This document shows, piece after piece, positions 3,592 through 20,713 of a DNA stretch of 21,045 bases (positions are counted from its first letter, which is position 1; each line of letters starts with the position of its first letter). Below the pieces are notes generated by a model. That model worked only from the letters and a program-made list of their open reading frames with translations, ran no database searches and was not told the DNA's origin. A program made the translations under genes and the position numbers. This DNA is from a virus: positions 1 through 21,045 of IMG/VR virus record IMGVR_UViG_3300034082_001961, one strand, 5' to 3'.

Positions 3592-3975
3592 ATGCAACAG
3601 CGTGCCGGTTTACTATTTTTATCTAAAAATACCAAAAGAATACTTCTTATTTTAGAAGATTCTAAGTGGACTGTGCCTACTTTTCCTCGAAGCAATTCTC
3701 TATTAGAAGATGTTGATCCTCTAATGAAAGATTTTTCAACTGGAAAGATTTTACCAATCGAATTATATCTCAGCGAAGATAGAGGATTTGAATACGGCAC
3801 TTATGTGTGCCTAGTTGATCAAGAATTTTTAACCACTAAGGCAGCATCGATTGCTTGGTGTGGATTAGAAGATCTTCCAAAAAATCTACACAATGGGCTA
3901 AAGGCCACATTAAATAATTCTATTATACAATCTAAAATATCAACAATTCTGGAATTATCAAATTCGTTAAACTAA
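3592..3975 (+). CDS. Degenerate Nudix-like small protein
   Basis: 127 residues beginning 11 bases after the gp15-like stop, with no clear Shine-Dalgarno. The opening strand AGLLFLSKNTKRILLILED followed by SKWTVPTFP has the shape of the first beta-strands of phage Nudix hydrolases (A-G-x-x-F-x-x-x-T-x-R-x-L-L-x-L then W-x-x-P-x-G). The end, AWCGLEDLPKNLHNGLK, resembles the W-x-x-x-x-x-L-P helix that closes such domains. The Nudix box itself (G-x5-E-x7-R-E-x2-E-E) is absent: where it should lie the protein has SNSLLEDVDPLMKDFSTGK. If it is a Nudix fold, it should lack pyrophosphohydrolase activity and may be structural or regulatory. The fold call rests on pattern shape alone. T4 has the terminase genes 16 and 17 at this position; they are not seen in this window. 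Confidence 0.4.
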   Translation: MQQRAGLLFLSKNTKRILLILEDSKWTVPTFPRSNSLLEDVDPLMKDFSTGKILPIELYLSEDRGFEYGTYVCLVDQEFLTTKAASIAWCGLEDLPKNLHNGLKATLNNSIIQSKISTILELSNSLN

Positions 3976-4316: not shown

Positions 4317-5078
4317 ATGCAATTAAAATATTCATATTACTATTTTAAATCGGCAATTCCGCCGGAAACTTGTAAAAGAATCATAGACCTCGGCGTGTCT
4401 AAATTAGCCGCTGAAAAAGAAAAAGGTATAAATGTTGAAGCATATACCTTCGGAGATCGACAGAAGAGTGCTGTAGGCGACGGGGTTCCATCACAAGGAG
4501 AATTAAGCAGACAAGAACTCAAAAAGAAAGGCATAGAAAACGTATATGTTAGAGACAGCGAAGTTACATGGCTTAATGAAAAATGGTTATATGATTTAAT
4601 ACATCCGTTAGTTAAAGAAGCAAACGCTAGGGCCGGATGGAATTACGAATGGGACTATTCAGAACATTTTCAATTTACAGTTTATAACTCTCCAGGTGGT
4701 TTTTATGGATGGCACAAAGACGGGGACAGCGATCATCCCGGAGTTTATAAAAGATACATACATGGAGTTACTCCTGCTCCAATGAAAGCGGATGGTAAAT
4801 TACCTGACAAGTATACCACTGATCCTAATATGATTGGAAAGATTAGAAAGCTATCATTAACACTTAATTTAAATGCCCCAGGAGAATACGAAGGTGGTAA
4901 TTTAAAATTTGATTTTGGTCATCATTCAGATAGTGAGCAGTTTTTTGAGTGTGAAGAAATTCGACCCCAAGGATCTGTAATTGTATTTCCGTCATTTCTA
5001 GATCATTGCGTTACTCCTGTAACATCAGGTACTAGATACAGCCTAGTTCTTTGGAGTTTAGGCCCACCGTTCAAATAA
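4317..5078 (+). CDS. Prolyl-4-hydroxylase-like 2OG/Fe(II) dioxygenase
   Basis: 253 residues with a well-spaced TAGGAG ribosome site. The double-stranded beta-helix carries the complete facial triad: H133 and D135 in YGWHKDGDSDH, and H230 in FLDHCVTPVTSGTRYSL, with R240 placed to bind the 2-oxoglutarate C5 carboxylate. A GGNLKF strand (about 193-198) and GSVIVFPSF (219-227) are typical of the P4Hc family. Such enzymes couple 2-oxoglutarate decarboxylation to hydroxylation of prolyl or other residues or small molecules; the substrate cannot be read from sequence. An insert of about 35 residues between HxD and the LTLNLN strand (around 140-178) may form a substrate lid. No signal peptide is seen, so cytoplasmic. 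It is the first gene behind a likely late promoter and is followed after four bases by a second, shorter homologue with the same C-terminal W-x-x-GP ending. Confidence 0.88.
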   Translation: MQLKYSYYYFKSAIPPETCKRIIDLGVSKLAAEKEKGINVEAYTFGDRQKSAVGDGVPSQGELSRQELKKKGIENVYVRDSEVTWLNEKWLYDLIHPLVKEANARAGWNYEWDYSEHFQFTVYNSPGGFYGWHKDGDSDHPGVYKRYIHGVTPAPMKADGKLPDKYTTDPNMIGKIRKLSLTLNLNAPGEYEGGNLKFDFGHHSDSEQFFECEEIRPQGSVIVFPSFLDHCVTPVTSGTRYSLVLWSLGPPFK

Positions 5079-5082
5079 AAAT

Positions 5083-5625
5083 ATGTTTTTATACGACTGG
5101 TATACTCTCAAAGAATTGTATTCTAACGAAGAATGCAATGCCTTGCTTGAAATATCTCAAAATAATCAAAGCAATATACTTAAAGATCGTGGTGCAGAAG
5201 AAAAAAATGTAACTACAACTGTTGTAGAGATGCACTATTATGGTCAACTGTTAGATAAATTATTTGATATGGTTCATAGTGTTAATAGAAACTATTACGG
5301 ATTTGATCTATTCCCAGAAAGACCGCTGGGAATGAATGTCAATACCTATTCTGATTCCACTAATGAATATCCCTATCATCGAGATTGCAATAGTCCTGGT
5401 ACATCTTGTGATTCCAAACTCACTGCTATTATGAATATTTCTGACGAACCTTATGAAGGCGGTGATTTTTTTATGTTTTTTGGTCATGATATGCCTATTC
5501 CAGAATTACATCAACGAGGGTCTCTTTTAGTTTTCCCTAGTCAGATATATCATAAGGTAACTCCGGTAACATCAGGCAAAAGAATAACATTGTCAACTTG
5601 GTTACAAGGTCCAAATTTTGTATGA
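5083..5625 (+). CDS. Second prolyl-4-hydroxylase-like 2OG/Fe(II) dioxygenase
   Basis: 180 residues. The fold is shorter than in the upstream gene, but the active site is complete: H99 and D101 in YPYHRDCN, H157 in QIYHKVTPVTSGKRITLS, and R167 for 2-oxoglutarate. EGGDFFMFFG (125-134) corresponds to the EGGNLKF strand of the neighbour, and both proteins end in a W-x-x-GP-x-F motif, so the two are probably ancient paralogues with diverged N-terminal halves. The N-terminal part (LYSNEECNALLEIS) resembles the helix that opens many P4H-type enzymes. The start follows the upstream stop by four bases, and its stop overlaps the next start (ATGA at 5622-5625), so it belongs to the same polycistronic unit. 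The substrate is unknown. Confidence 0.86.
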   Translation: MFLYDWYTLKELYSNEECNALLEISQNNQSNILKDRGAEEKNVTTTVVEMHYYGQLLDKLFDMVHSVNRNYYGFDLFPERPLGMNVNTYSDSTNEYPYHRDCNSPGTSCDSKLTAIMNISDEPYEGGDFFMFFGHDMPIPELHQRGSLLVFPSQIYHKVTPVTSGKRITLSTWLQGPNFV

Positions 5626-6215
5626 GAATTGATAGTTTAATTATTGATAATTTTTTAGACGACCCTGATTACATAAGAAGTGTAGCATTGCAGTCTGAAT
5701 TTAATTTAACTGGGAGTTTTCCCGGACGACGGACGTACCAATGTGATACGTTATACAATAACGAAGTTAAAAATAAATTAGAAAAAATTTTAAATTTAAA
5801 AATAATTGATTGGAACAAACATTTTGACCAAACAGCCAACGAAGTTGTTGATCTTGATACAAGTTGTTTTCAATTATGTTTAGATAATGCAGAAACCTGG
5901 ATACACCCAGACCCTACTGAATTTACGGGAATATTATATCTAACTCCTGATGCTCCTGTAGATGCTGGCACTGGTATTTACAGGCATAAGCAAACAGGAA
6001 TTTATAAACACTCTAACGATTGTCAAGTCGATGATAAATTTATAGACAACTGGGAAATTATCACATTTTCTGGCAACGTTTATAATAGAATGTTTATTTT
6101 TAGGGGAGACCTATATCACAGAAGTGTGATGCCAGGATTTGGAGTCGATAAATATTCCGGCAGATTAACTCAAACATTCTTTTTTAATACAGAAGAATAT
6201 AAAAATAGGAAATAA
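5622..6215 (+). CDS. DUF6445-like protein, putative Fe(II) oxygenase fold
   Basis: 197 residues from the ATG at 5622, which overlaps the previous stop as ATGA; an in-frame TTG at 5598 would extend 24 bases back into that gene and has no ribosome site. The opening DSLIIDNFLDDPDYIRSVAL, the core WIHPDPTEFTGILYLTPDAP (93-112), GTGIYRHKQTG, and the end with LYHRSVM and GRLTQTFFF match my memory of the DUF6445 family, which occurs beside tryptophan halogenases and in marine phages. H95, D97, H166 and R181 are arranged like the HxD...H...R site of 2-oxoglutarate oxygenases, so an iron-dependent hydroxylase is plausible though not demonstrated for the family as far as I know. It is tightly coupled to its neighbours (the next ATG is one base after the stop). 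Confidence 0.78.
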   Translation: MRIDSLIIDNFLDDPDYIRSVALQSEFNLTGSFPGRRTYQCDTLYNNEVKNKLEKILNLKIIDWNKHFDQTANEVVDLDTSCFQLCLDNAETWIHPDPTEFTGILYLTPDAPVDAGTGIYRHKQTGIYKHSNDCQVDDKFIDNWEIITFSGNVYNRMFIFRGDLYHRSVMPGFGVDKYSGRLTQTFFFNTEEYKNRK

Positions 6216-6216
6216 A

Positions 6217-6930
6217 ATGGAAACCGTAGAAGCCACAATTAAAAACTCAGTTGACAACTCGCTTGATGAGTTGTATAAAAATACTTCCCAATATTTTAAA
6301 GATCACAAATATTTGGTTTTAAAAAGTTTCATTGATCCGAATATGGCTGGTCTGTTGTACCAATACTCATTGGTTAAAGTGCAACAAATAGATTTTAAAA
6401 GTATGTTTGACAAAGCTGCCTACAATGAAGGTTGGGATGGCAGATTTGGTGACGAGCAAGCTCCGATTAGTTATAATTGTTATGCTGATGCTATGATGGA
6501 AACAATTTTAGCGGCTAGTACAAAAACACTAAGCCAATATGTAGGTTTTGAATTAACTCCTAACTATAGTTATTGGCGATTGTATCAGCAAGGCGAAGTC
6601 TTGTTAAGACATCGAGATCGAGAAAGTTGCGAAGTTAGTGCAACAATGTGTTTGGGGTATAATGTTTCTAATTTAGATCAGGAAAAACATCCAGGATACA
6701 ACTGGCCAATGTTTGTAGAAACTGAAGATGCTCCAGACGGAGTACCTATCAACTTAGAACCCGGTGATATAATCATATATCGAGGTTGCGATGTTGAACA
6801 CTGGCGAGAGAAATTTCTTGGGTTAAATCACGCTCAGTTATTTTTACATTATAATGACCCAACAGGTCCGTTTGGAATTAGGTTAGACGGGAGACCTATT
6901 CTAGCAGTACCTAAACACTTTCAAAAATAA
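6217..6930 (+). CDS. Putative 2OG/Fe(II) oxygenase, HxD...H type
   Basis: 237 residues. The protein shows YSYWRLYQQGEVLLRHRDRE (117-136), where H132 and D134 could be two iron ligands, and EPGDIIIYRGCDVEHWREKF (181-200), where H195 could be the third. The EPGD turn before the distal histidine is characteristic of the double-stranded beta-helix. The position where other members have R or K for 2-oxoglutarate is uncertain (NHAQLFLHY, about 204-212), so the co-substrate is less clear than in the two P4H-like neighbours. The N-terminal 110 residues are largely helical. Similar proteins with the H-x-D-R-x-x-C-E-x-S pattern are familiar from marine phage genomes. It follows the DUF6445-like gene after one base and precedes a gene with its own strong ribosome site. 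Confidence 0.72.
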   Translation: METVEATIKNSVDNSLDELYKNTSQYFKDHKYLVLKSFIDPNMAGLLYQYSLVKVQQIDFKSMFDKAAYNEGWDGRFGDEQAPISYNCYADAMMETILAASTKTLSQYVGFELTPNYSYWRLYQQGEVLLRHRDRESCEVSATMCLGYNVSNLDQEKHPGYNWPMFVETEDAPDGVPINLEPGDIIIYRGCDVEHWREKFLGLNHAQLFLHYNDPTGPFGIRLDGRPILAVPKHFQK

Positions 6931-6948
6931 TTTAAAAGGAGAAAATAA

Positions 6949-7281
6949 ATGTCAAAAGAAATTGTACCAGTATTTGATTACGGTAGTATCAATGAAGTCC
7001 AACAGACTGTAGCAAAAGAAATTGCAGGTTGGCTTGATTCACGTGGCCTAACAGATGTCTCTAGAGATTTGTTGGTTCGATTTAAAATTGAAGAAAATAA
7101 AAAATACGATATTACACAGTCTAAATTTTATCAGGTATGTAAGGCAGCAGGAATTTATGTTGCCGGTCAAGGAATCCTAGTAGAAGGCGAAGGTGCTAAT
7201 GCCACAGAATATCCACTAGTAGCAATTAGTGGAGATATTCGAGAACTTGATAAATTTATTGATTTTGTAAAAAATAATTAA
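6949..7281 (+). CDS. Unknown 110-aa protein with strong ribosome site, coupled to a halogenase gene
   Basis: 110 residues with AAGGAG at 6936-6941, seven bases before the ATG; this is the best Shine-Dalgarno in the enzyme run. The N-terminal half is helical (EVQQTVAKEIAGWLDSRG); the C-terminal half contains a VAGQGILVEGEGANATEYPL segment and ends in a short helix. There are a single Trp (W28) and a single Cys, and no signal peptide or membrane segment. Its stop shares a base with the next start (TAATG), so it is translationally coupled to the halogenase-like gene. I do not recognise the family. The strong ribosome site suggests that more of it is made than of the flanking enzymes, as for a substrate, carrier or structural protein, but that is inference. 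Confidence 0.65.
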   Translation: MSKEIVPVFDYGSINEVQQTVAKEIAGWLDSRGLTDVSRDLLVRFKIEENKKYDITQSKFYQVCKAAGIYVAGQGILVEGEGANATEYPLVAISGDIRELDKFIDFVKNN

Positions 7282-8741
7282 TGATCAAGACTCCTAAATC
7301 TATTGCCATAGTCGGCGGTGGGACTGCCGGCTTTGTGTCTGCTCTTATACTAAAGAAAAAATTTCCATCGTTGAAAGTTTCTATTATTAGATCAACAAAA
7401 ATAGGAATAATAGGAGTTGGTGAAGGTTCTACAGAACACTGGAAGAACTTTTTAAATTTTCTTGAAATAGATCATAAAGAAGTTTTTAAAGAATGCGATG
7501 CCACTTTAAAATTTGGAATTATGTTCAAAGATTGGACTGATAAAGATTATCTACACAGCATACAAACTGAATACAATCAAAAATTTGGTCAGTATTCCTA
7601 TGTTTATGCAAATTTAATCGGTGAAGGAAATGATTCTCAATCGTTATCTTCAAGCATACCCTGGAAAGGTCAAGTTAGTCGATGGTTTATAGATAATCCA
7701 GACTATTCCCCCACTTCTCAGTTTCATTTTAATACCAACAAATTAAATGCTTGGCTGATTAAACTAGCTGCTAAATTTAATATCGATGTATTTGACGATG
7801 AAATCGTTGATGTTGAGATTAAAGAAGACGGTGATATTGGCGTGTTAACTGGAAATAAACAAAATTATAATTATGATTTTTATATAGACAGTACAGGATT
7901 TAAAAAATTATTAATTTCTAAATTAGGTGCTAAATGGCAAAGCTATTCAAAGTATCTCAAGATGAAATCTGCTATTGTTTTTCCTACAGGCGATGAAGAA
8001 AATTATAATACCTACACATTAGCTAAAGCAATGGACTATGGTTGGATGTTTAGAATTCCTACCTGGGGTAGATATGGCAATGGCTATATCTACGATAGCG
8101 ATTATATCGACGAACATCAAGCAAAATTAGAAGCAGAAAAATATCTAGGGTACGAAGTTAATATAGCAAAAAAAATAGATTTCGACCCAGGCGGATTAGA
8201 TCGAGTATGGATAAACAACTGTGTAGCCATTGGGCTTTCTGCTAGTTTTGTTGAACCGCTAGAAGCGTCTTCTATAGGAACGTCAATTCAACAATCATTT
8301 TTATTGATGTACAGTTTGATTAATTACGATCAGAAAGTTATCGATTCGTATAATAAAAGTTGTACTTCAATATTAGAAAATATTAGAGACTTTGTAGCAT
8401 TGCACTACTACACAAATAAAGACTCGTCTCAATTTTGGAAAGATATAAAAAATATACCAATTCCTGAAAAACTAAAAGAAAAATTGGAAATATGGAAACA
8501 TCGATTGCCAGTTTCAGAAGATTTTAATTCGGAGTCTAGATATATATTGTTTAGTGAAGATCATCACATTATGGTCTTGCACGGAATTGATCACTTTAAC
8601 AAAGATAGCATCAAGAAAGAATTCGAAATGCACGATATACAAGTAAAGATTGATTCTGATAACATTATTTCTCATAATAAATTACAGCAAGACACTGTAC
8701 CGAGAATAAGTCATAAAGAATTTGTAAAGTATTTTAGATAA
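7281..8741 (+). CDS. Flavin-dependent tryptophan-halogenase-like protein (variant WxWxIP motif)
   Basis: 486 residues, close to the usual 500-540. The N-terminal dinucleotide-binding motif is IVGGGTAGF (10-18). GVGEGSTEHW (45-54) is the second FAD-contact motif of tryptophan halogenases, and ECDATLKFGIMF (71-82) contains K77 at the position of the catalytic lysine (K79 in PrnA). FVEPLEASSIG (323-333) matches the EPLES motif that carries the catalytic glutamate, in the EPLE-x-x-SI form known from non-classical halogenases. The diagnostic WxWxIP motif is altered to WMFRIP (255-260): the second Trp is Phe. Known members use FADH2 from a separate reductase, O2 and chloride or bromide to halogenate indoles; no reductase is seen nearby. 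The gene is coupled at both ends by TAATG overlaps. Halogenase family membership is strong; activity and substrate are open. Confidence 0.85.
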   Translation: MIKTPKSIAIVGGGTAGFVSALILKKKFPSLKVSIIRSTKIGIIGVGEGSTEHWKNFLNFLEIDHKEVFKECDATLKFGIMFKDWTDKDYLHSIQTEYNQKFGQYSYVYANLIGEGNDSQSLSSSIPWKGQVSRWFIDNPDYSPTSQFHFNTNKLNAWLIKLAAKFNIDVFDDEIVDVEIKEDGDIGVLTGNKQNYNYDFYIDSTGFKKLLISKLGAKWQSYSKYLKMKSAIVFPTGDEENYNTYTLAKAMDYGWMFRIPTWGRYGNGYIYDSDYIDEHQAKLEAEKYLGYEVNIAKKIDFDPGGLDRVWINNCVAIGLSASFVEPLEASSIGTSIQQSFLLMYSLINYDQKVIDSYNKSCTSILENIRDFVALHYYTNKDSSQFWKDIKNIPIPEKLKEKLEIWKHRLPVSEDFNSESRYILFSEDHHIMVLHGIDHFNKDSIKKEFEMHDIQVKIDSDNIISHNKLQQDTVPRISHKEFVKYFR

Positions 8742-9460
8742 TGGCAAAAAAGAAAATTGTTTATTGGGCTCCTGTATTTTTTGATGATAAAAAAGATTGG
8801 AACATATTCTACTATGATTTAGAATCTTTATATGATAATCATAGACCTCAAATTGATAAAGGCTCCGAAACAAACAATTTTTTTTATTGTCCAGCATTTA
8901 AACATCTTGCTCGAAATACATTTTTAATTAAAAATCCAATTCATACACATTTTATATTTGAAGATGGTGTTGCAAAAGTAAAAAGCAAAAATCATGTTCT
9001 TATAGAAAAACAGCATCCGCCGTCTATAAAAAATAGTGAGTTAATTTGTTATGGAATGCAGTTTGTCTTTTTTAGTGAAGATGACATAATAGCCAAGTTA
9101 ACTTCTCCATTTTTTAATCAATCTCCTTATATGCAAAATTGTTCTCTAGTACCAGGACAGCTTAATATTAAAAAATGGTTTAGAAATTTAAATTTAGAAT
9201 TTAATTTATGGCCCAATAAAAACGAGATTGAATTTCAAAAAGACGAAGTAATAGCTTATGTAAATTTTGAGTGCGGAGACGAAGAAGTAGTTTTAAAAAG
9301 ATTTCAAATGAATCCTAAATTACATCAGCTTATGGGGGCTTGTGCTTCGGCAACTTCTTGGGAATCGTTTGTTCCTATTCAAGAAAGATATCAAAGATTT
9401 ATGAAAACTAGAACAAATTCATTAGTCTTAAACGAAATTAAAAACAATTTGGTAACTTAA
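8741..9460 (+). CDS. Unknown protein, first of a paralogous pair (DUF6065-like?)
   Basis: 239 residues, start overlapping the halogenase-like stop as TAATG. Landmarks are CPAFKHLARNTFLIKNP, FVFFSEDD, VPGQLNIKKWFRNLNLEFNL and an EFQKDEVIAYVNF strand near residue 170. The next gene has the same order of landmarks (CDGLLSLYSKGFHLKMWSDL, IPGCINFKNQ, LELIAGDPIVHIIP), so the two are distant paralogues. The layout (Cys-Pro near the start, a PG-x-(I/L)-N strand, a final acidic 'E-x-x-x-G-(D/E)-P-hydrophobic' turn) recalls DUF6065-type beta-sandwich proteins reported near oxygenases and halogenases; I could not verify this. No catalytic motif, signal peptide or membrane segment is evident. Its place right after the halogenase suggests a linked role. 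Confidence 0.7.
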   Translation: MAKKKIVYWAPVFFDDKKDWNIFYYDLESLYDNHRPQIDKGSETNNFFYCPAFKHLARNTFLIKNPIHTHFIFEDGVAKVKSKNHVLIEKQHPPSIKNSELICYGMQFVFFSEDDIIAKLTSPFFNQSPYMQNCSLVPGQLNIKKWFRNLNLEFNLWPNKNEIEFQKDEVIAYVNFECGDEEVVLKRFQMNPKLHQLMGACASATSWESFVPIQERYQRFMKTRTNSLVLNEIKNNLVT

Positions 9461-10177
9461 ATGTTTGATATTATTAACAAAAGAAAAAAAATAGTTGTAG
9501 ATTGTTTTACAAGTAATCCTGCAATACTTGAATATTTCCCTATAACTCATGCTGTTAAAAATTATCCCGATTGGTGGAAAAGGATGGAAGCATCCTTTCC
9601 GCACACTAGTACTAGTGGTATTGAACATCCTGCTCCTACTATAAAACGTTGTGACGGACTGCTTAGTCTTTATTCCAAAGGTTTTCATTTGAAAATGTGG
9701 AGTGATTTGATCTTAGAAACTAATGATCAAGGAGAATTTAGATATCAATATTCTTCTGACGAAAATCATCCTATTGTTAGTCACAGTAAAAGACAAATAG
9801 GGTCTGCTTTTGGAAACTATGCGCATCTTAAAATACTATCTCCCTGGATGATAGAAGAAAAAACCGGGGTTGATTTTTTATTTACAGGGTCTAGTTGGAA
9901 TTATCCAGACAAACTGTTTGATTGGAATATTATTCCAGGTTGCATTAATTTTAAAAATCAATCTAGTACACACATAAATCTTTTTATGCCTGCAAAACAA
10001 GCAAGATTAGAACTCATAGCTGGAGACCCCATAGTACATATAATTCCTGTATCTGAAAAAGATGTAGATTTAAGATGTCATGAATTAACTGACAAAGAGT
10101 ATAGAACTAAAATGTTAAAATATAGTTTTATGTCTAGTTTTATGGGCAGGTTTAAGAAAAATGCAAAACGCTCTTAA
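9461..10177 (+). CDS. Unknown protein, second of a paralogous pair (DUF6065-like?)
   Basis: 238 residues, beginning one base after the previous stop. The core CDGLLSLYSKGFHLKMWSDL (about 65-84) and the C-terminal IPGCINFKNQ and RLELIAGDPIVHIIPVSE (about 182-199) parallel the preceding protein and give the clearest match of the two to the DUF6065-like pattern. It is rich in Trp and Tyr (including PDWWKRM near residue 33), suggesting a ligand-binding beta-sandwich. It ends in a basic tail (GRFKKNAKRS) and overlaps the next gene by 17 bases. No catalytic residues can be named. Pairing with the upstream paralogue may mean a heteromer. Confidence 0.7.
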   Translation: MFDIINKRKKIVVDCFTSNPAILEYFPITHAVKNYPDWWKRMEASFPHTSTSGIEHPAPTIKRCDGLLSLYSKGFHLKMWSDLILETNDQGEFRYQYSSDENHPIVSHSKRQIGSAFGNYAHLKILSPWMIEEKTGVDFLFTGSSWNYPDKLFDWNIIPGCINFKNQSSTHINLFMPAKQARLELIAGDPIVHIIPVSEKDVDLRCHELTDKEYRTKMLKYSFMSSFMGRFKKNAKRS

Positions 10178-10811
10178 TTCTGGTTTTCATTTTTTTCCTA
10201 ATTACGGCTATCTTGTAGAAGATATTCCTCTTGATATATTTGCCGAAATAAGAAAAGAAGTTAGAAAAATTAAATCTGATATGGAAAATTTTCCGTCAGC
10301 TACTTCTTTACTTAGTGGTAATATTGAACAAGAGTTTACACTAACTGAATGCAATAACGTTCTCGAACCTTACGTTTTAAGGCTGGTTAAGTCATACGAT
10401 GATCACTTTAATTATATAAAAAGTATTAATTCGTTAGACACTGATCTTCCACTAGGGCTAACACAGCTATGGGTCAATTTTCAAAAGAAGCACGAATTTA
10501 ACCCTAATCATAATCATTCGGGCGTATTCAGTTTTGTAATATGGGTAAAACTTCCTTATGAATTAAAGGAAGAATTAGACGCTTCACCAGGAAAATATTC
10601 TAATGGGAATGTTGCTTCGGCTTTTCAGTTTACTTATAGCGATACTTTAGGTAATCTTAGAACACATTCTTTATTTTTAGATAAATCATCTGAAGGAAAG
10701 ATTTTATTATTTCCTAATAAAATGATACATTGTGTTTATCCATTCTATACAAGTGACGAGTATAGAATTTCAGTATCTGGTAATATTTCATTAAAGGTAA
10801 AAAATGACTAG
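10161..10811 (+). CDS. 2OG-FeII_Oxy_5-type (PF13759-like) oxygenase
   Basis: 216 residues. LTQLWVNFQKKHEFNPNHNH (100-119) followed by SGVFSFVIWVKLP is the hallmark of the 2OG-FeII_Oxy_5 group, which has a W-x-N strand, an (N/P)-x-H-x-H motif and then SG-x-x-(Y/F). Candidate iron ligands are H117 and/or H119 and the distal H190 in FPNKMIHCVYPF; R202 in YRISVSGN would hold 2-oxoglutarate. KILLFPN (180-186) is the usual strand before the distal His. Similar proteins are common in T4-like marine phages; their substrates are not established as far as I know. The gene overlaps the preceding one by 17 bases and the following one by 8, so translation is likely coupled across all three. Confidence 0.82.
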   Translation: MQNALNSGFHFFPNYGYLVEDIPLDIFAEIRKEVRKIKSDMENFPSATSLLSGNIEQEFTLTECNNVLEPYVLRLVKSYDDHFNYIKSINSLDTDLPLGLTQLWVNFQKKHEFNPNHNHSGVFSFVIWVKLPYELKEELDASPGKYSNGNVASAFQFTYSDTLGNLRTHSLFLDKSSEGKILLFPNKMIHCVYPFYTSDEYRISVSGNISLKVKND

Positions 10812-11346
10812 TTTTTATGAATTTGACAATAGCGAAGTAGGTAGTTTGGTATATTCTTTTAATCAATTAGGAGAAAATATAGTTGGTGCAGAAGTCGGTG
10901 CATTTAGAGCGCAGTGTAGCTGCTGTTTGTTGCAGAAATGCAACAACATTAAAAAAATATATTTAATAGATCCTTTTAAAGCGCATCTTGACAGTATACA
11001 AAATTTATTTTTTGATGAAAAAGAAATGGAGTTTGTTAGAACTACAGCACATCATCATATTAAATGGTCAGGACATCAAGACAAAGCAGAATTTTTAGAA
11101 TTTGAAGAAATTGAGGCCGCTGAAAAAATAGAAGACGAAAGTTTAGATTTTGTTTACTTCGACGCCTGGGTAGATATAGAAACTGTTGAAGAAAAAATAA
11201 TTCGATGGGAACGCAAGGTTAAGAAAGGTGGTATTGTTTCTGGACACGACTGGAAATATATCCCAATCCGAGAAAAACTACAGGCACATCGACAAGAAAA
11301 ACAGCTATTAAATGTCAATAATACCTGGATGTGGTATAAAGATTAA
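10804..11346 (+). CDS. Class I SAM-dependent methyltransferase
   Basis: 180 residues. VGAEVGAFRAQCS (about 27-39) is motif I of the Rossmann-like methyltransferase fold (acidic residue-x-G-x-x-x-G type), IYLIDPF (about 51-57) supplies the acidic end of strand 2, and LDFVYFDAW (about 114-122) with GGIVSGHDW (about 142-150) corresponds to strands 4 and 5 in Methyltransf_24-like small-molecule or sugar O-methyltransferases. The length is at the short end, with no extra substrate domain. The GHDW segment is common where a metal or acidic pair assists catalysis. It overlaps the upstream oxygenase gene by 8 bases and is the last gene of the forward run; its TAA overlaps the convergent cupin-like gene's stop within TTAA. 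The substrate is unknown; glycans or modified amino acids are candidates. Confidence 0.82.
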   Translation: MTSFYEFDNSEVGSLVYSFNQLGENIVGAEVGAFRAQCSCCLLQKCNNIKKIYLIDPFKAHLDSIQNLFFDEKEMEFVRTTAHHHIKWSGHQDKAEFLEFEEIEAAEKIEDESLDFVYFDAWVDIETVEEKIIRWERKVKKGGIVSGHDWKYIPIREKLQAHRQEKQLLNVNNTWMWYKD

Positions 11347-11939
11347 TTTAAATTAAATGTAATAGATAACTTAAAATCTTCAATTTCTTTCACACAATGC
11401 CACTTGGCTTTGTCGATAAAAAATACATTTTGATCTTCTAAGACATATTCATTGTCGTCAATTAGCCATTTTGATTTACCTGCTATATTTTTAATTATAA
11501 CAGAATAATCATGCTCATGGTACGGATAAGATATAATCTTTGAGCCTTTAGAAATATACATATTAGAATTTATTTCTATGCCAAATTCTTTATTCAATCT
11601 ATCAGTTATAGCTGCAATATCATTAAAAAGATACTGAACTCCTGAAATAACAAATGTGTGCCCTTGTTTGTATAAGTTTAAAAATTTATCGTACAATAAG
11701 CATTCATCGATAGGAGAGAAAAAATCCTGTTCTTTGTATCCGTCTTCTCTAGCTATTCTTTCTATAGTAGGGCACCCTGTGGGATAACTCTTAGGCCAAC
11801 GATACCTATCTCTAATCCTTTCTAAGACCATATCTTCGGATATTCTTAGAGGACTAGAGTATACCATATTCACAACTCTGTTTAATTTGGTATCGTCTAA
11901 CTCGAAATGTTTCATTCGAGCTTCGATAATTTCTTCCAT
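11343..11939 (-). CDS. Cupin/JmjC-like putative Fe(II) oxygenase
   Basis: 198 residues. The C-terminal third has the cupin/JmjC layout: SYPYHEHDYSVIIKNIAGKS (137-156), with H141, H143 and D144 as candidate metal ligands, then a Trp and an IDDNEYVLEDQNVFFID strand pair, and H181 in KWHCVKEIEDFKLSITF as the distal ligand. The V-x-x-x-x-G-K-x-K/W-x-(I/L) stretch recalls the strand after HxD in cupin_4 protein hydroxylases such as the ribosomal oxygenases; there the substrate is a protein side chain. The N-terminal 100 residues are helical and charged, without a recognised domain. It lies downstream of two small genes and the glycine-rich gene on the minus strand and converges with the methyltransferase gene. 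A weaker alternative is a non-enzymatic cupin. Confidence 0.62.
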   Translation of the reverse strand: MEEIIEARMKHFELDDTKLNRVVNMVYSSPLRISEDMVLERIRDRYRWPKSYPTGCPTIERIAREDGYKEQDFFSPIDECLLYDKFLNLYKQGHTFVISGVQYLFNDIAAITDRLNKEFGIEINSNMYISKGSKIISYPYHEHDYSVIIKNIAGKSKWLIDDNEYVLEDQNVFFIDKAKWHCVKEIEDFKLSITFNLN

Positions 11940-11943
11940 ATTA

Positions 11944-12162
11944 TTAGCTTTGTGATTCTACTAGATTTTTTAGGTATGCCGTTTCTTCCTCAGTAAGAGG
12001 AGGTTGAGAAGTTGCTAAAAAATGTAAATTAATATCATGCTCAAAATATTTTTTTGAACCTGCAAGGGTGGGAAATTTAGCATTGCATATATGATCGCCT
12101 GATTCGGTAGAAACTGCGATAGTTACTTCTCTGCCATCAAAATTATAATTAAAAGATCTCAT
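11944..12162 (-). CDS. Small protein, paralogue of its upstream neighbour
   Basis: 72 residues. The C-terminus LTEEETAYLKNL matches LTTEEKAFLQSM in the 71-aa protein encoded just upstream, and both begin with a polar beta-like half containing an R-x-(V/L)-(T/I)-x-x-(V/F) strand, so the two look like paralogues. The start is one base after the neighbour's stop, implying coupled translation. No signal peptide, membrane segment or metal motif is seen. Location directly 3' of a large adhesin-like gene suggests a fibre-assembly role, as with small tail-fibre chaperones in other T4-like phages, but there is no sequence match to T4 gp57A or gp38 that I can see. Confidence 0.6.
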   Translation of the reverse strand: MRSFNYNFDGREVTIAVSTESGDHICNAKFPTLAGSKKYFEHDINLHFLATSQPPLTEEETAYLKNLVESQS

Positions 12163-12163
12163 T

Positions 12164-12379
12164 TTATTCTGCGTCCATCATTGATTGTAAAAATGCTTTT
12201 TCCTCTGTGGTTAAAGCTGATTTATTTAACTGTGCTAGTGCTGTATCGAGATCAGTTATGGCATTGTTTTTAAATGCCCAAATAGAAGGAGTTGATGTTC
12301 TAGCTACTTCTACTCCATCTTCAAATATCATGATTAGCCTAGTATTACTATCAATTTCGGTTTTTTGTATTTCTCTCAT
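12164..12379 (-). CDS. Small protein immediately downstream of a glycine-rich gene
   Basis: 71 residues, starting 11 bases after the glycine-rich gene's stop with AGGAAA before the ATG. It contains RLIMIFEDGVEVARTSTPS, which looks like a beta-hairpin, followed by an amphipathic segment (AITDLDTALAQL) and the LTTEEKAFLQSM helix shared with the next gene. It is cytoplasmic by sequence. The pair is found once in this window although there are three glycine-rich genes, so if it is a chaperone pair it either serves one of them or all three. Function is unknown. Confidence 0.6.
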   Translation of the reverse strand: MREIQKTEIDSNTRLIMIFEDGVEVARTSTPSIWAFKNNAITDLDTALAQLNKSALTTEEKAFLQSMMDAE

Positions 12380-12390
12380 TTTTTTTCCTA

Positions 12391-14409
12391 TTAGTATCTA
12401 ATAATAACCACGCCAGGGCCGCCTCGGCCGCCTACTCCATATGGATTACTACTGTTGTGACCGGAAGCACCACCACCACCGCCAGTATTATCGGCTCCAG
12501 GACTAGCATAATCTCCTGCGGCCTGTTGATGGAATCCGTATGTTGATGCGTGAACCGGATTGTTATAACGGCCACCACCGCCACCACCGCCAGGTCCACC
12601 TGCGCCTCCTTGAGATTGTGGAGCGTGGCCACCACCGCCACCACCTCCACCTCGAGTTACTGATGTTCCAGTGATACTGTTAGCAACTCCAATACCTCCA
12701 GCACCTGCAGGATTGCCGCCGCCTGCTCCTCCTACTCCACCTGCTCCTCCTCCTCCGCCACAACCATGTGGAGGTGATCCTGGACTATCGCCTCCGGGAA
12801 ATCCTTGCCCAGGTATTCCTCGTCCAAACCCGCCTGGATGGGTGTAGGCTGCGCCGCCGCCGCTGCCACCTCTGCTTCCCGAGTCTCCACTGTTGCCCGG
12901 GTGTGTGTCAAACCCTGCTGTAGGGAATCCGGGATAATTATTTTGATTTCCTGGATGTACACCGCCAGATCCGCCACCGTAGGCTTCTAGTCCTCCAAAT
13001 CTTGAAGGTTGTCCTTTGTTTGAAACAAACTGAGGTGGAGATGATGTTTCAACTTGATTTCCGCCGCCTACTCCAACATATACAGGAACTACTCCATCTG
13101 GGCTGATTGGATGATTAGGAACATATAGATGTCCGCCAGCACCTCCTCCTCCTCCAAGAATTCCGCCAGCACCACCGCCAGCAACTACTAGTACATCGCA
13201 ATGCGTTACTCCCATAGGAACTTTAAAAAAGTGTGCGCCAGTTGTGTTAAATTCTACAACTGTTCTTCTTATTGGTTTCCAAATACTACCGTCATAGATT
13301 TCTGTTAGCCTGCTGTCTGTGTTGTATCTCATCATGCCTGTTTCTGGTGCGTCAGTGCTTGGAGTAAGATATCTTACAATAATTACGCCTGGGCCACCAC
13401 CACCGCCATTGGCATCATCACCAATACCGGTGTGCATACCACCACCACCACCACCACCGGTATTTCTGCGCCCCGGTTCGCCGAAGCCAAAAGGTTGCCA
13501 TCCAACTGGACCTGGAGTGGTAGCTGCTCGAGTATTGTACTCTGTAGGCTGGCCAGCAGTAGCTGGAAAATCATATCCTATTTGAGAATCGTAATGAAAG
13601 TCAAACGATGCTCCGCGTCCACCACCACCAAGTCCACCAGGTGCAGTATCAACTGGGCTTTGATAACCACTTACGTGACTGCCACCTCCACCTCCACCTG
13701 CATAGTATTGATTTATTCCAGTAATACTACTAATTAAACCATCCCCACCTTTTCTTCCAGCATTACCGTTTGATCTAGTGTCTCCAGGTCCAATGTTACT
13801 AGGATGTCCGCCTGCGGCACCTGCACCACCGCCACCACCTCCGGTGTGTGTTCCTACTCCAGTAGTTGCATTATTAATGGAACCGCCTAGATTGCCGCCA
13901 CCTGCTCCAGGAAAGCCATAATTAATACCACCGGGGTTTGGCTGACCTGGTTGTGTGGCAGCACCTCCTGCTCCACTGCTGGTTCCGCCACCACCACTTC
14001 CTCCAGCAAGACCTGTGCCGCCTGGGGCCCAACCTCCACCACCACCACCGCCTAGTGCTGTTAATGCTCCAAATGTAGTGGGATTTCCATTAGATCCGTT
14101 TCCACTACTATAACCACGAGCTTGACCGCCTGTTCCGATATTATAAGCCACTGTTCCGCCAGGTGTCACCGGCAATGCAGGACGATACACAGCACCACCG
14201 CCACCGCCACCGCCACCAATTCCACCGCCAGCACCGCCGCCACCAATAACTAATACGTCAACTGCGGTTATTCCCGAAGGAACTGTAAATGTACCGGGGC
14301 CAGTAGTAGTAAACATCTGGACAACGTATCCAGGTCGTTGTAATGTTGTTCCTGACGGAATTTCAAGGTGTCCAGTATCATTAACTGTTGTACTCTGTAA
14401 AGTTGCCAT
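12391..14409 (-). CDS. Two-module glycine-rich adhesin-like (tail fibre) protein
   Basis: 672 residues. There are two modules of about 300 residues. Each begins with a strand segment (TTGPGTFTVPSGITAVDVLV at about 35-54; TTGAHFFKVPMGVTHCDVLV at about 374-395), continues with long poly-Gly and GGxGG repeats interrupted by Pro, His, Asn and aromatic residues, and ends in GPGVIIVRY or GPGVVIIRY, the last at the very C-terminus. A linker with MMRYNTDSRLTEIYDGSIW, a motif common in phage fibres, joins them. The beta 'VPxGV' plus glycine-rich organisation fits the glycine-rich domain families of phage tail proteins. By analogy with the Gly-rich motifs of S16-type gp38 adhesins it could pack as polyglycine-II helices with variable loops at the tip. 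The start has AGAGAGAAA before it and late-promoter-like elements further upstream. Role in host binding is inferred. Confidence 0.8.
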   Translation of the reverse strand: MATLQSTTVNDTGHLEIPSGTTLQRPGYVVQMFTTTGPGTFTVPSGITAVDVLVIGGGGAGGGIGGGGGGGGAVYRPALPVTPGGTVAYNIGTGGQARGYSSGNGSNGNPTTFGALTALGGGGGGGWAPGGTGLAGGSGGGGTSSGAGGAATQPGQPNPGGINYGFPGAGGGNLGGSINNATTGVGTHTGGGGGGAGAAGGHPSNIGPGDTRSNGNAGRKGGDGLISSITGINQYYAGGGGGGSHVSGYQSPVDTAPGGLGGGGRGASFDFHYDSQIGYDFPATAGQPTEYNTRAATTPGPVGWQPFGFGEPGRRNTGGGGGGGMHTGIGDDANGGGGGPGVIIVRYLTPSTDAPETGMMRYNTDSRLTEIYDGSIWKPIRRTVVEFNTTGAHFFKVPMGVTHCDVLVVAGGGAGGILGGGGGAGGHLYVPNHPISPDGVVPVYVGVGGGNQVETSSPPQFVSNKGQPSRFGGLEAYGGGSGGVHPGNQNNYPGFPTAGFDTHPGNSGDSGSRGGSGGGAAYTHPGGFGRGIPGQGFPGGDSPGSPPHGCGGGGGAGGVGGAGGGNPAGAGGIGVANSITGTSVTRGGGGGGGGHAPQSQGGAGGPGGGGGGGRYNNPVHASTYGFHQQAAGDYASPGADNTGGGGGASGHNSSNPYGVGGRGGPGVVIIRY

Positions 14410-14419
14410 TAATTTCTCT

Positions 14420-14432
14420 CTAATATTAGTAT
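14420..14432. repeat. 13-bp direct repeat, left copy (CTAATATTAGTAT)
   Basis: The same 13 bases occur at 16738-16750 in the same orientation. This copy lies just upstream of a glycine-rich gene start; the other covers the stop codon of another glycine-rich gene. On the minus strand it reads ATACTAATATTAG, like the 3' end of a glycine-rich gene (AGA-TAC-TAA). The copies bracket the second halogenase/oxygenase block. Confidence 0.8.
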
Positions 14433-14436
14433 GATC

Positions 14437-14460
14437 ATAAATATCCTGAAAGATATTTAT
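14437..14460. promoter_or_regulatory. Inverted repeat with late-promoter-like cores on both strands
   Basis: A perfect 9-bp inverted repeat (ATAAATATC / GATATTTAT) with loop CTGAAA. On the plus strand it contains CATAAATA and on the minus strand AATAAATA, so it could serve as a two-way late promoter for the divergent glycine-rich gene (start 14409) and halogenase gene (start 14528). An AT-rich hairpin followed by TTTT could alternatively act as a weak terminator, but it lies upstream of both genes. Confidence 0.4.
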
Positions 14461-14490
14461 TTTTCTATGTATTTATTCCTGTTATTTATT
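14454..14490 (-). promoter_or_regulatory. Three tandem AATAAATA late-promoter-like elements
   Basis: On the minus strand AATAAATA occurs at 14461-14454, 14477-14470 and 14490-14483, spaced 13-16 bases apart, 45-80 bases upstream of the glycine-rich gene start at 14409. The outermost copy is embedded in GAATAAATAACAG, identical to the element before the gp13-like gene. They resemble the T4 late promoter core TATAAATA; three in a row argue against chance, although the region is AT-rich. Confidence 0.5.
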
Positions 14491-14527
14491 CCAATTTTCC
14501 TGTAATGGAAATACAAATTGAGCATAT

Positions 14528-16132
14528 ATGAAAATTATTAAAAATTTACAAAAAATTGTAATTGTAGGTGGCGGATCTGCTGGGTGGATGTCTGCAGCAA
14601 TTCTAATTAAATTCTTTCCAAAACACGATATTACGGTTATAGAAAGTCCAGATCATCCTATTATAGGTGTAGGAGAAAGCACATTATTAGGTATAAGAAA
14701 CTACTGTAATTATTTAGATCTTGATGAATCTGAATTCATGAAGCACACCGATGCAAGCTATAAAATGAGCATTAAATTTACAGATTTTTATGAAAAAGAC
14801 GGTGGTGCATTCCATTATCCGTTTGGCAAGGCAACGTGTTCACGAACTTCAATTAATTATTTCGAAGATTGGTTTATTAAAAAGGCATTATACCCCGATA
14901 CACCCGTTGAAGATTTCGCTCAATCGTATTATCCAAATGCCGCATTATATGAGCAAAATAAATTTACAGATAATAGACATAAAAAATTCGATGATTGGGA
15001 TCCAAAATATCATGTTGCCTATCATTTTGATGCTACAAAATTTGGAATATGGCTTAGAGAAAATTATTGCTTGCCTAGAGGTGTTAAAATTATTAGAACA
15101 TCTGTCGAAAGTGCAGAAGTAGACGACGATGGTATTAAACATCTTTTATTAAAAACTGGAGAAACCGTCTCTAGTGATTTATTTGTTGACTGTACTGGAT
15201 TTAAAAGTCTATTACTAGGTGACTATCTCAAAGAAGATTTTATCAGTTACTCTAATATGCTGCCTAATAACAGAGCTTGGGCAACTAGATTACAGTATAA
15301 AGATAAACAAAAAGAATTAGAACCATTTACTAATTCTACGGCTATAGGCAACGGATGGGTTTGGAATATTCCAAGTTGGGAAAGATTAGGCACCGGATAT
15401 GTCTACAGCGACAAGTTTATCAGCCCAGAAGATGCTAAAGAAGAATTTAAACAACATCTCATGAGTGATAAAATGATATGTCCTCGTAGCAGAGAAGAAG
15501 TTGATGCACTAGAGTTTAAAGATATTCAAATGCGTGTGGGCATACACAAAAGAACATTTGTAAAAAATGTTGTAGCAATTGGCCTAAGTGCAGGATTTAT
15601 AGAGCCATTAGAATCTAATGGACTGTTTAGTGTACACGAATTTCTATATAGATTAGTTAAAACTATAGCGCAAGGATCAATTAATCAATTTGATATAGAT
15701 GTTTACAATACTGCTACTCGACATATGTTTCAAAATTTTGCAGAATTCGTAGCTTTGCACTATGCTTTTAGTAAAAGAAACGATACAGAATATTGGAAAG
15801 CTAACAATGCCAGAATCTATGACAAGGATATGCCTGATCTTATTCCTTCTAGAAGTGTAGGCTTTGCTGATTATGCTGAAAGAAAAATGTTTCAAAATTT
15901 ATTTAAAGTAGATACTGGACTAGTTTGGATTGCAACAGGAATGAATCATTTTATTATCGATGAAATCACAGTAAAAGAACTGCAATGGAAACAGACACAA
16001 TCTTTAAAATCAATTTATGCACAGTCATTTACTGACATGGAACTAAACAAAGCTCGATGGTGGAAAGCTGCTGAGAATGAAATATCTTTATGTGATTGGT
16101 TAGAAAAGCATGTGCATAATCAGTCAACATAA
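14528..16132 (+). CDS. Flavin-dependent tryptophan halogenase, motifs intact
   Basis: 534 residues, the normal length for the family. IVGGGSAGW (12-20) binds the FAD dinucleotide; GVGESTLLGI (47-56) is the second flavin motif; TDASYKMSIKF (74-84) carries K79, the same number as the catalytic lysine of PrnA; GWVWNIPSW (276-284) has the complete WxWxIP signature; FIEPLESNG (357-365) holds the catalytic glutamate E362 and the chloride-site loop. Known relatives oxidise halide with FADH2 and O2 and transfer HOX through the lysine to tryptophan or other indoles or phenols. A partner flavin reductase is not seen here; a host one could serve. It is divergent from the glycine-rich gene and converges with the next oxygenase gene (13-base overlap). 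Tryptophan halogenase genes have been reported in some cyanophages. It is clearly different in sequence from the halogenase at 7281, so not a recent duplicate. Confidence 0.92.
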   Translation: MKIIKNLQKIVIVGGGSAGWMSAAILIKFFPKHDITVIESPDHPIIGVGESTLLGIRNYCNYLDLDESEFMKHTDASYKMSIKFTDFYEKDGGAFHYPFGKATCSRTSINYFEDWFIKKALYPDTPVEDFAQSYYPNAALYEQNKFTDNRHKKFDDWDPKYHVAYHFDATKFGIWLRENYCLPRGVKIIRTSVESAEVDDDGIKHLLLKTGETVSSDLFVDCTGFKSLLLGDYLKEDFISYSNMLPNNRAWATRLQYKDKQKELEPFTNSTAIGNGWVWNIPSWERLGTGYVYSDKFISPEDAKEEFKQHLMSDKMICPRSREEVDALEFKDIQMRVGIHKRTFVKNVVAIGLSAGFIEPLESNGLFSVHEFLYRLVKTIAQGSINQFDIDVYNTATRHMFQNFAEFVALHYAFSKRNDTEYWKANNARIYDKDMPDLIPSRSVGFADYAERKMFQNLFKVDTGLVWIATGMNHFIIDEITVKELQWKQTQSLKSIYAQSFTDMELNKARWWKAAENEISLCDWLEKHVHNQST

Positions 16133-16686
16133 TTATACCAACCGGTAACTATGTATTTTGTTTCTTGGGGTGCAGGAATACCCCGATGTGTATGTGTCCA
16201 GTCAGCAGGCCAGATTAATGTAAGTCCTTTTTCTGGTTTTACAAATAACTGTTGATGATAAAATTCTGTTTCTCCGCCAGTGTTGACAGTATTTAAATAG
16301 GTCATGAACACTAAATGCCTCGAAGATTGAAGGCCATTTCTTCCTATTCGTTCCGTGTGATAAGCATTAAACGATTCTCGAGGTTGATATTTTTGTATAT
16401 TAATTCCTTCACAGATTCTCCAAGGAGAATAGCTATTTGAAAAAGGATACTTAATTACATATTCTTCACAACAAACTTGTAAAGATTTAACGTACTTCCA
16501 ATATAATTGTTCATTATTATCAAGTACAACTTCACTGCAATTCTTTGTAGCATTGTCTAGCAATAGTGAGCCTTCTGAGCTACTGACCATTCCTGATGTT
16601 TTTTCTGGGTGAGATTCAAAAAAATCTATAATTTCATTGCATATAGAAAGATCTTGCAAGTAGAATTTCTCTACAAAATTTGTCAT
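16120..16686 (-). CDS. 2OG/Fe(II) oxygenase with HxE metal motif
   Basis: 188 residues. The core FNAYHTERIG (106-115) gives H110 and E112, an H-x-E in place of the usual H-x-D; MTYLNTVNTGGETEF (128-142) is the next strand pair; and GLTLIWPADWTHTHRGIP (154-171) provides the distal histidine (H165 or H167). KYIVTGWY near the C-terminus places K177 where an Arg normally binds 2-oxoglutarate. This combination (HxE, P-A-D-W-T-H-T-H-R-G, K-Y-I-x-T-G-W) is a recognisable subgroup found in phages and bacteria, so it is probably functional rather than decayed. It follows a Rho-independent terminator and has no clear Shine-Dalgarno. It overlaps the convergent halogenase gene by 13 bases. The two together form the block between the 13-bp repeats. 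Substrate unknown. Confidence 0.82.
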   Translation of the reverse strand: MTNFVEKFYLQDLSICNEIIDFFESHPEKTSGMVSSSEGSLLLDNATKNCSEVVLDNNEQLYWKYVKSLQVCCEEYVIKYPFSNSYSPWRICEGINIQKYQPRESFNAYHTERIGRNGLQSSRHLVFMTYLNTVNTGGETEFYHQQLFVKPEKGLTLIWPADWTHTHRGIPAPQETKYIVTGWYNYVD

Positions 16687-16737: not shown

Positions 16738-16750
16738 CTAATATTAGTAT
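16738..16750. repeat. 13-bp direct repeat, right copy (CTAATATTAGTAT)
   Basis: Exact copy of 14420-14432 in the same orientation, covering the last codons and stop of the glycine-rich gene on the minus strand (TAC-TAA then TATTAG). Part of it is therefore coding, and the similarity to the left copy could reflect a duplicated gene end. Confidence 0.8.
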
Positions 16751-20703: not shown

Positions 20704-20713
20704 TTTAATTTCC

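Follow-up and report, generated by a model that had tools for sequence, protein, structure and literature searches.

Marine T4-like phages often carry genes for tryptophan halogenases and for many 2OG oxygenases whose roles are unexplained; the literature has suggested protection against antibiotics, repair of DNA and signalling by 2OG. The stretch of viral DNA analyzed here (IMG/VR record IMGVR_UViG_3300034082_001961; 21,045 nucleotides, hereafter the window) carries a block of such genes (4317-16686) among structural genes, raising the question of what the encoded enzymes act on. The block comprises two Trp_halogenase-family flavoproteins (F, O), seven oxygenase-type Fe proteins, six of them 2OG-type and one a cupin (A, B, C, D, I, K, P), and one methyltransferase. 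An initial annotation had described this set and suggested that it modifies virion proteins; the genes it had proposed within the block are present, at about the positions it had assigned, with Pfam or PHROG support. The features of the window are the following:

3-677, minus strand: neck protein, gp13-like (head-tail adaptor Ad2), flank; phrog_211 2e-28
708-2102, plus: gp14-like virion structural protein, flank; phrog_11591 1e-86
2102-3580, plus: tail sheath stabilizer, gp15-like, flank; phrog_11196 1e-78, phrog_227 1e-24
4317-5078, plus: A, P4H-like 2OG-Fe(II) oxygenase; PF13640 3e-11
5083-5625, plus: B, P4H-like 2OG-Fe(II) oxygenase; PF13640 3e-10
5622-6215, plus: C, DUF6445 oxygenase-like protein; PF20043 1e-11, phrog_1644 8e-32
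6217-6930, plus: D, 2OG-like oxygenase; phrog_2954 3e-42, no Pfam match
6949-7281, plus: E, small protein directly 5′ of halogenase F; phrog_10937 3e-16
7281-8741, plus: F, predicted flavin-dependent halogenase 1; PF04820 2e-92
8741-9460, plus: G, predicted dUTPase-fold (beta-clip) protein, paralogue of H; phrog_17480 6e-27
9461-10177, plus: H, predicted dUTPase-fold (beta-clip) halogenase-linked protein; AF2 model
10161-10811, plus: I, PF13759 oxygenase-family protein (HxH...H); PF13759 3e-11
10804-11346, plus: J, SAM methyltransferase; Methyltransf_24 PF13578 5e-8
11343-11939, minus: K, cupin/JmjC-like protein; weak cupin match in Pfam, phrog_29157 9e-33
12391-14409, minus: N, two-domain poly-Gly fibre-tip protein (Gly_rich_2), proposed substrate; PF21722 3e-25
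14528-16132, plus: O, predicted flavin-dependent halogenase 2, VirX1-type; PF04820 1e-107
16120-16686, minus: P, P4H-like 2OG-Fe(II) oxygenase (HxE...H); PF13640 4e-10
16744-18705, minus: Q, two-domain poly-Gly fibre-tip protein, proposed substrate; PF21722 2e-38
18715-19722, minus: R, poly-Gly fibre-tip protein, proposed substrate; PF21722 1e-22
19723-20733, minus: S, fibre protein with S74 intramolecular chaperone; PF13884 3e-12

The flanks are structural, as the initial annotation had it, and the gp15-like gene has tblastn matches in PA5oct-type and other T4-like phages. The block does not lie strictly between neck and adhesin genes, because the poly-Gly adhesin N is inside it. G and H, which the annotation had missed, are recurrent parts of the block. 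The annotated genes of the window include none recognised as a flavin reductase. The late promoter TATAAATA occurs 0 times in the window against 3.2 expected by chance; in eight named phages it lies 5′ of 3/19 poly-Gly genes, 0/15 halogenases and 0/59 island 2OG genes, a placement before poly-Gly genes that is suggestive only.

Of the seven Fe(II) sites thought possible, all have ligands conserved within their family, and the HxD/E...H triad is found in A (H133xD135, H230, R240), B (H99xD101, H157, R167), C (H103xD105, H174, R189, numbered from the TTG start at 5598; reading from 5622 gives a protein 8 residues shorter), D (H132xD134 and H195, invariant in 34 sequences, with no 2OG-binding residue recognised) and P (H110xE112/H167, where position 112 is Glu in 25/34 sequences and Asp in 9/34). 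I (H117xH119/H190) and K (H141xH143/H181) instead read HxH...H, and their chemistry may differ from that of HxD/E...H enzymes. The iterated profile of C pulls in the 2OG superfamily, I belongs to a putative 2OG-oxygenase family (PF13759), and the K profile reaches Syn9 gp49 (4e-24), a member of JmjC_2 (PF08007), which is a family of ribosomal-protein hydroxylases. The PHROG of D, phrog_2954, carries the label ferrochelatase. The single SAM methyltransferase is borne out in J.

Both proposed flavin halogenases belong to PF04820. In O, the GxGxxG, PrnA-type Lys (K79), WxWxIP and EPLES motifs are invariant or nearly so in 13 relatives, predicting a flavin-dependent (Trp-type) halogenase; F, with relatives in 16 IMG/VR loci, has GxGxxG, the Lys and EPLE, but reads GWMFRIP in place of WxWxIP, its second Trp being replaced by Phe. 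Profile comparison links the halogenases weakly to LodB, GoxB and QhpG, enzymes that act on residues within proteins. The closest solved structure to O is VirX1 (PDB 6QGM, E 1e-98), an iodinase/brominase of cyanophage Syn10 that shares the catalytic motifs and is identical to Syn9 gp42 at 417/417 residues over the aligned part; the gp42 gene lies inside the Syn9 block, a neighbourhood of the same kind as that in the window. VirX1 forms a trimer, and its active site is large and open; it differs in having been described as a biocatalyst on small aromatics, with no natural pathway assigned (PMC8407142). No discussion of its gene's place in a fibre-tip cassette was found in the literature searched.

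The AF2 model of H (pLDDT 87.5; structure-prediction alignments comprised the window and IMG/VR rows only) aligns with dUTPase over 125 residues (VIA-align Z 10.7, rmsd 2.8), and G is assigned the same beta-clip fold by alignment to H. Both thus resemble the dUTPase/dCTP deaminase superfamily in fold (Z up to 10.7) but lack its catalytic motifs: the signature is not conserved across the G/H family, where only W38, C64 and the start Met are invariant, and a GxLDPxY-like motif 3 seen in some relatives is absent from the window copies. A PDB sequence search with the G/H profile gave no match. Members of the H family, among them Syn9 gp43, lie within two genes of a halogenase in 19/21 cases. Because tblastn in named phages gave no match for window H and one weak match for window R, marine homologues of H and R were used as queries there.

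The features of polyglycine-II fibre tips are found in N, Q and R; invariant columns of the tip alignment are mostly Gly, and N is a close relative of R, the one of the three that was modelled. The predicted fold of R, at a pLDDT of only 65.6, matches the cyanophage Pam3 fibre (Z 15.1) and the Bxb1 tail tip (Z 15.2). These, like the T2-type gp38 of S16 and PP01, share a Gly-rich core and variable loops with N, Q and R, and differ in that no modification enzymes are mentioned for them in the text searched of PMC12892980. Poly-Gly tips contain few Lys or Arg residues. Aromatic content of poly-Gly proteins relative to the genome (Trp slightly up, Tyr slightly down) is not informative; conserved candidate residues in Syn9 gp38 are Y149, F161, H179, H202 and W91.

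In maps of 50+ loci, a halogenase, a 2OG array and a poly-Gly gene recur jointly, and with curated families and a block repeated in dozens of contigs this is more than chance. Across ten phage genomes, 17/19 halogenases have a poly-Gly gene within 10 kb, where rotation predicts 3.1±2.1 (largest of 2000 rotations, 12), as do 68/144 2OG genes, where it predicts 23.2±7.9 (largest, 52); the poly-Gly threshold was fixed after the maps had been seen, and the genomes are relatives of one another. Of 50,697 phage records, 20 contain the Syn9 gp38-type adhesin, and every one of these (20/20) has an island halogenase within 5 kb. Two S-RIM44 isolates have flanks 95-98% identical and a swapped tip allele: one allele (isolate Np_42_0711) holds three Gly-rich tip genes (23-25% Gly), two halogenases, H and oxygenases, and the other (W2_10_0709) a 12%-Gly tip, one 2OG gene and no halogenase. 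The same module is present in an unrelated, podovirus-type backbone (L042), and probably in that of its kin L044-L053; the L042 backbone is related to Pelagibacter podovirus HTVC027P, which in the corresponding slot has neither poly-Gly tip nor halogenase. Among phage halogenases whose neighbourhood can be judged, 57/62 have a poly-Gly gene nearby, against 2/80 of the bacterial homologues, a contrast that is descriptive only because sampling and relatedness differ. The bacterial loci share PF04820 with the phage copies and differ in their neighbours, with TonB-dependent receptors alongside and 2OG genes in 9/80. Substrates of bacterial PF04820 halogenases are largely unknown.

The block is thus co-inherited and syntenic with poly-Gly (polyglycine-II-type) tip genes. 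In marine relatives the genes of the block form a compact, overlapping series 3′ of the tip genes, with which they are presumably co-expressed. The proposed virion-protein substrate is accordingly supported in part for adhesins, with the substrate itself read from linkage, and less well for neck proteins: in five of the ten genomes (Syn9, S-WAM1, P-TIM40, P-RSM6 and S-CREM1) neck genes lie 65-79 kb from the block, where poly-Gly genes adjoin it, so the block follows fibre tips rather than the neck, and a neck substrate is disfavoured. The initial annotation had also proposed a search for the same gene set beside Gly-rich fibres in other phages, and had held that enzymes lying away from fibres, with metabolite genes, would speak against it. 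The set does recur beside such fibres, in phages of two virion types, and the enzymes follow the tip genes, which makes adhesins a better-supported target than neck proteins or a free metabolite.

Not all halogenases fit this pattern, and a few have metabolic, replication or deoxysugar genes as neighbours: psbA, hli or talC (psbA/hli for S-MbCM6 and the third S-RIM44 copy), gp46/47 in S-B64 and L041, and RfbA/RfbB/DegT in L022/L023; S-SCSM2R has a halogenase some kilobases from glycosyltransferases. In the halogenase tree, the five copies that lie away from poly-Gly genes are not monophyletic, and those in metabolic contexts are separate, long-branched sequences.

Since the block travels with poly-Gly tips in many different phages, its enzymes most likely decorate those tips, and we consider it probable that they hydroxylate and halogenate them. 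The 2OG/Fe(II) oxygenases (P4H-like, DUF6445, JmjC-like, PF13759) would hydroxylate side chains during fibre assembly, and the two halogenases, using FADH2 and halide that we assume the host to supply, would act on aromatic or imidazole side chains in loops protruding from the poly-Gly core, with G and H, more speculatively, as partner or adaptor proteins. The outcome would be tips with changed receptor-binding chemistry, rigidity or stability. We give roughly even odds to the broader view that poly-Gly receptor-binding tips are delivered as exchangeable cassettes with their own halogenases and hydroxylases, the fibres being covalently halogenated and hydroxylated and the fibre tip being the natural substrate of VirX1. 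Mimivirus encodes collagen hydroxylation and glycosylation, and resembles this scheme in directing 2OG oxygenases to the virus's own repetitive, Gly-rich surface proteins; it differs in lacking halogenases, in involving no phage tail fibre and in protein fold. The RiPP enzyme SrpI is a flavin-dependent brominase whose substrates are ribosomal peptides, even structured ones (PMC10858898), but it requires a leader peptide and is part of a secondary-metabolite pathway; no gene for a precursor peptide is recognised here. The text searched of the S-CREM1 virion mass spectrometry study (PMC9964418) reports no modifications.

A fibre allele can also carry along linked genes whose products have nothing to do with the fibre, and T-even gp38 tips with poly-Gly cores are not known to need enzymes of this kind. 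The enzymes might instead target the host, either at its surface (receptor, lipopolysaccharide or another glycan) or in one of its proteins. This could, for example, prevent superinfection or the loss of progeny on debris, and the genes would accompany the tip because a tip has to suit its receptor. A tie to one tip allele would be expected of such functions too, and they would also suit the L022/L023 deoxysugar neighbours, the S-SCSM2R glycosyltransferases and the outer-membrane TonB receptors adjoining bacterial homologues. We regard this explanation as unlikely, given that the window block has no glycosylation genes, that it is poly-Gly tips in particular to which the genes are linked, in phages that differ in host and represent two virion types, and that flavin halogenases are cytoplasmic; F and O start directly at the FAD-binding motif, so that neither has space for a signal peptide.

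Somewhat less likely again is a role in producing or changing a small molecule, whether for protection against antibiotics, for signalling or for the metabolism of 2OG. Such roles have been proposed for PrnA and 2OG oxygenases in cyanophages (PMC2984593, PMC3037559, PMC9964418) and are in keeping with the halogenases found with psbA, hli or talC. Those metabolic-context copies branch apart, no NRPS, PKS or terpene scaffold genes are annotated in the islands examined, and neither the 20/20 co-occurrence with the gp38-type tip nor the S-RIM44 allele swap would be expected. That fibre neighbourhoods are mere insertion hotspots with unrelated cargo fits their hypervariability, the many 2OG genes scattered outside islands and the restriction of E (homologues in L010, L011, L012, L027 and L039) and J (L010 only) to few relatives, but is improbable when the same subfamilies (halogenase, H, D, K/JmjC, DUF6445, P4H) recur as a group, H (5/5) and D (8/8 in the ten genomes) are island-only in whole genomes, block genes overlap in operon-like fashion, and in the S-RIM44 swap both halogenases, H and most oxygenases are lost along with the poly-Gly tips.

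Modification of the poly-Gly tips therefore remains the preferred reading. The link to one kind of receptor-binding tip provides a concrete, testable substrate for VirX1, an enzyme that has been crystallised and has no known native role. If correct, it would constitute enzymatic halogenation of a virus structural protein, and it suggests that phage host recognition may hinge on tip chemistry that is invisible in sequence alone.

In the window, a genome fragment comprising its entire IMG/VR record (21,045 bases), gene calling and family scans bear out the enzymes listed in the initial annotation: F and O are Trp_halogenase-family flavoproteins, the five proteins A, B, C (DUF6445), D and P each carry an HxD/E...H site of 2OG type, the PF13759 protein I and the cupin/JmjC-like protein K have HxH...H sites, and J is the single SAM methyltransferase. 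The proposed location of this block between neck and adhesin genes holds for its flanks, with gp13, gp14 and gp15 to the left and, to the right, genes for poly-Gly (Gly_rich_2) proteins and for an S74 fibre protein, but one poly-Gly protein gene sits inside the block. The tail-sheath stabilizer most resembles its counterparts in PA5oct and other large members of the T4 superfamily. A small NUDIX-like gene (3592-3975) immediately follows gp15, the same order as in PA5oct-type Pseudomonas jumbo phages. Two neighbouring paralogous genes of 71-72 aa, L and M (11944-12379), adjoin adhesin N, have homologues in loci L011, L012 and L027, and perhaps encode small tail assembly factors. Halogenase F (7281-8741) carries GWMFRIP in place of the family WxWxIP motif, a change common to locus L041 (GWMFEIP) and not to L042 (GWMWRIP).

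Relatives of O (50-69% identity) occur in 28 IMG/VR loci and relatives of F in 16, and 66-67 named phage records contain a halogenase homologue. The same gene set, which the initial annotation suggested looking for beside Gly-rich fibres in other phages, recurs in most HMM-annotated locus maps. These share at least one halogenase, a 2OG-type array (two to eleven genes within 6 kb in most mapped loci) and a poly-Gly protein, and their block members often include D, H, K and DUF6445. The block begins directly after fibre and poly-Gly genes in Syn9, S-RIM44, S-WAM1, P-TIM40, P-RSM6, S-CREM1 and Sf-CH11, where its genes overlap or leave short gaps, in operon-like packing.

Ten sequences picked via a halogenase search and not via their fibres, eight from named phages and two long contigs from IMG/VR, were used to assess linkage by random rotation of the halogenase positions. 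Of 19 halogenase ORFs, 17 have a poly-Gly gene within 10 kb, versus 3.1 ± 2.1 on rotation (maximum 12, 2000 rotations); by the same measure, 68 of 144 2OG genes do, versus 23.2 ± 7.9 (largest 52). These figures are descriptive because the genomes are related and were mapped beforehand, and because the poly-Gly threshold (17% Gly and a run of five) was set after map inspection. Genome by genome the test is not significant (p about 0.08-0.24), its strength residing in the sum. The Syn9 gp38-type poly-Gly tip is present in 20 of 50,697 phage records, with an island halogenase within 5 kb in all 20. In Syn9, S-WAM1, P-TIM40, P-RSM6 and S-CREM1, the halogenases are 65-79 kb away from gp13 and gp15 but within a few kb of poly-Gly genes; the neck is near the block in S-RIM44, Sf-CH11, HTVC008M and the window solely because fibres adjoin the neck there. 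The block tracks the fibre tip rather than the neck.

Between the long fibre gene and gp13, S-RIM44 isolate Np_42_0711 carries three tip genes rich in glycine (23-25% Gly) along with two halogenase genes, H, DUF6445 and oxygenases. At the same site, isolate W2_10_0709 encodes a tip protein with 12% Gly, one small protein and a single oxygenase, of the PF13759 family, and 95-98% identity between the two resumes just before gp13. In S-RIM44 the enzymes change together with the tip, as a single allele. Four isolates possess both tip and island halogenase (one also present as a RefSeq copy); neither was matched in the hit lists for KX349292, KX349295, KX349297 and KU594607, among which KX349297 alone was inspected in detail.

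The block enzymes probably modify the fibre tips, a reading we hold with moderate confidence because it derives from linkage, because there are exceptions, and because modification of the receptor or of host surface glycans would likewise predict linkage to tip alleles; a host-surface target is unlikely. Poly-Gly protein R (model pLDDT 65.6 overall, higher in the core) is predicted to fold as a Gly-rich fibre tip resembling both the Bxb1 tail tip and the fibre of cyanophage Pam3 (Z about 15). T2-type gp38 binds its receptor through variable loops carried on a core of polyglycine-II type (PMC12892980). In the Syn9 gp38 family, conserved residues other than Gly include Y149, F161, H179, H202 and W91, which are candidate modification sites only.

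The paralogues G and H were missed by the initial annotation. The H model (pLDDT 87.5) shows a dUTPase-type fold (VIA Z 10.7, 125 residues, rmsd 2.8), although alignment of the family shows no preserved dUTPase catalytic signature, and G and H themselves lack it. Of 21 H-family members in the mapped loci, 19 have a halogenase no more than two genes away; in the named-phage collection, an O-type halogenase adjoins the Syn9 H homologue in 14 of 15 records, the remaining one being a weak match in S-RIM4. Given this adjacency, H is a dedicated companion of the halogenase; an adaptor role is speculation.

Several halogenases lie elsewhere. Those of S-B64 and L041 (L055:14989-16560 and L041:1389-2852) directly adjoin the recombination nuclease genes gp46/gp47 and are remote from fibres; the P-SSM2 halogenase adjoins genes annotated as tail-fibre assembly, with no poly-Gly gene. 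The S-MbCM6 halogenase and a third S-RIM44 copy have metabolic-gene neighbourhoods. In a T4-like contig (L023:5145-9918, and L022), a halogenase 54% identical to O sits between deoxysugar genes of RfbA/RfbB type and of DegT type, as read from sequence, so the same enzyme may serve another purpose there. A phage contig from human faeces (MT835646) encodes two halogenases with no nearby poly-Gly gene. Where they align (residues 4-420 of 6QGM), VirX1 shares all 417 residues with Syn9 gp42, which sits in the block; VirX1 is described as a homotrimer whose active site is large and accessible, with a preference of I > Br > Cl and no associated biosynthetic cluster (PMC8407142). That the block acts on a small molecule is less likely than a host-surface target. 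Earlier work on phage PrnA and 2OG enzymes proposes antibiotic protection, DNA repair or 2OG metabolism (PMC2984593, PMC3037559, PMC9964418, PMC9146016); a link to fibre tips was not found in the literature searched. That the enzymes are mere cargo is the least probable reading.

Of the 80 bacterial loci that carry a halogenase relative, 2 have poly-Gly genes and 9 have 2OG genes; an ORF about as large as a TonB receptor is present in 62, and all four tested are TonB receptors or contain a TonB plug domain. Fibre linkage is a phage feature. On a Deltaproteobacteria MAG contig (L157:8001-9440), a halogenase 54% identical to O has neighbours that look ordinary chromosomal, which suggests phage-bacterium transfer.

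Locus L042 combines a poly-Gly gene, a small protein, a 2OG gene, a halogenase and more 2OG genes, adjoining tail genes, and the L044-L053 group was assigned this arrangement by gene order. A NodU-type carbamoyltransferase (L042:7072-8445) lies amid the 2OG genes. The structural protein of L042 is nearest to those of phage 023Pt_psg01 and the Pelagibacter podoviruses HTVC027P and HTVC023P; inspection of the corresponding HTVC027P slot revealed three small reverse-strand genes, one annotated as a 2OG oxygenase, and neither a poly-Gly tip nor a halogenase. Given the podovirus-type context of L042, the module is therefore not tied to the T4 backbone.
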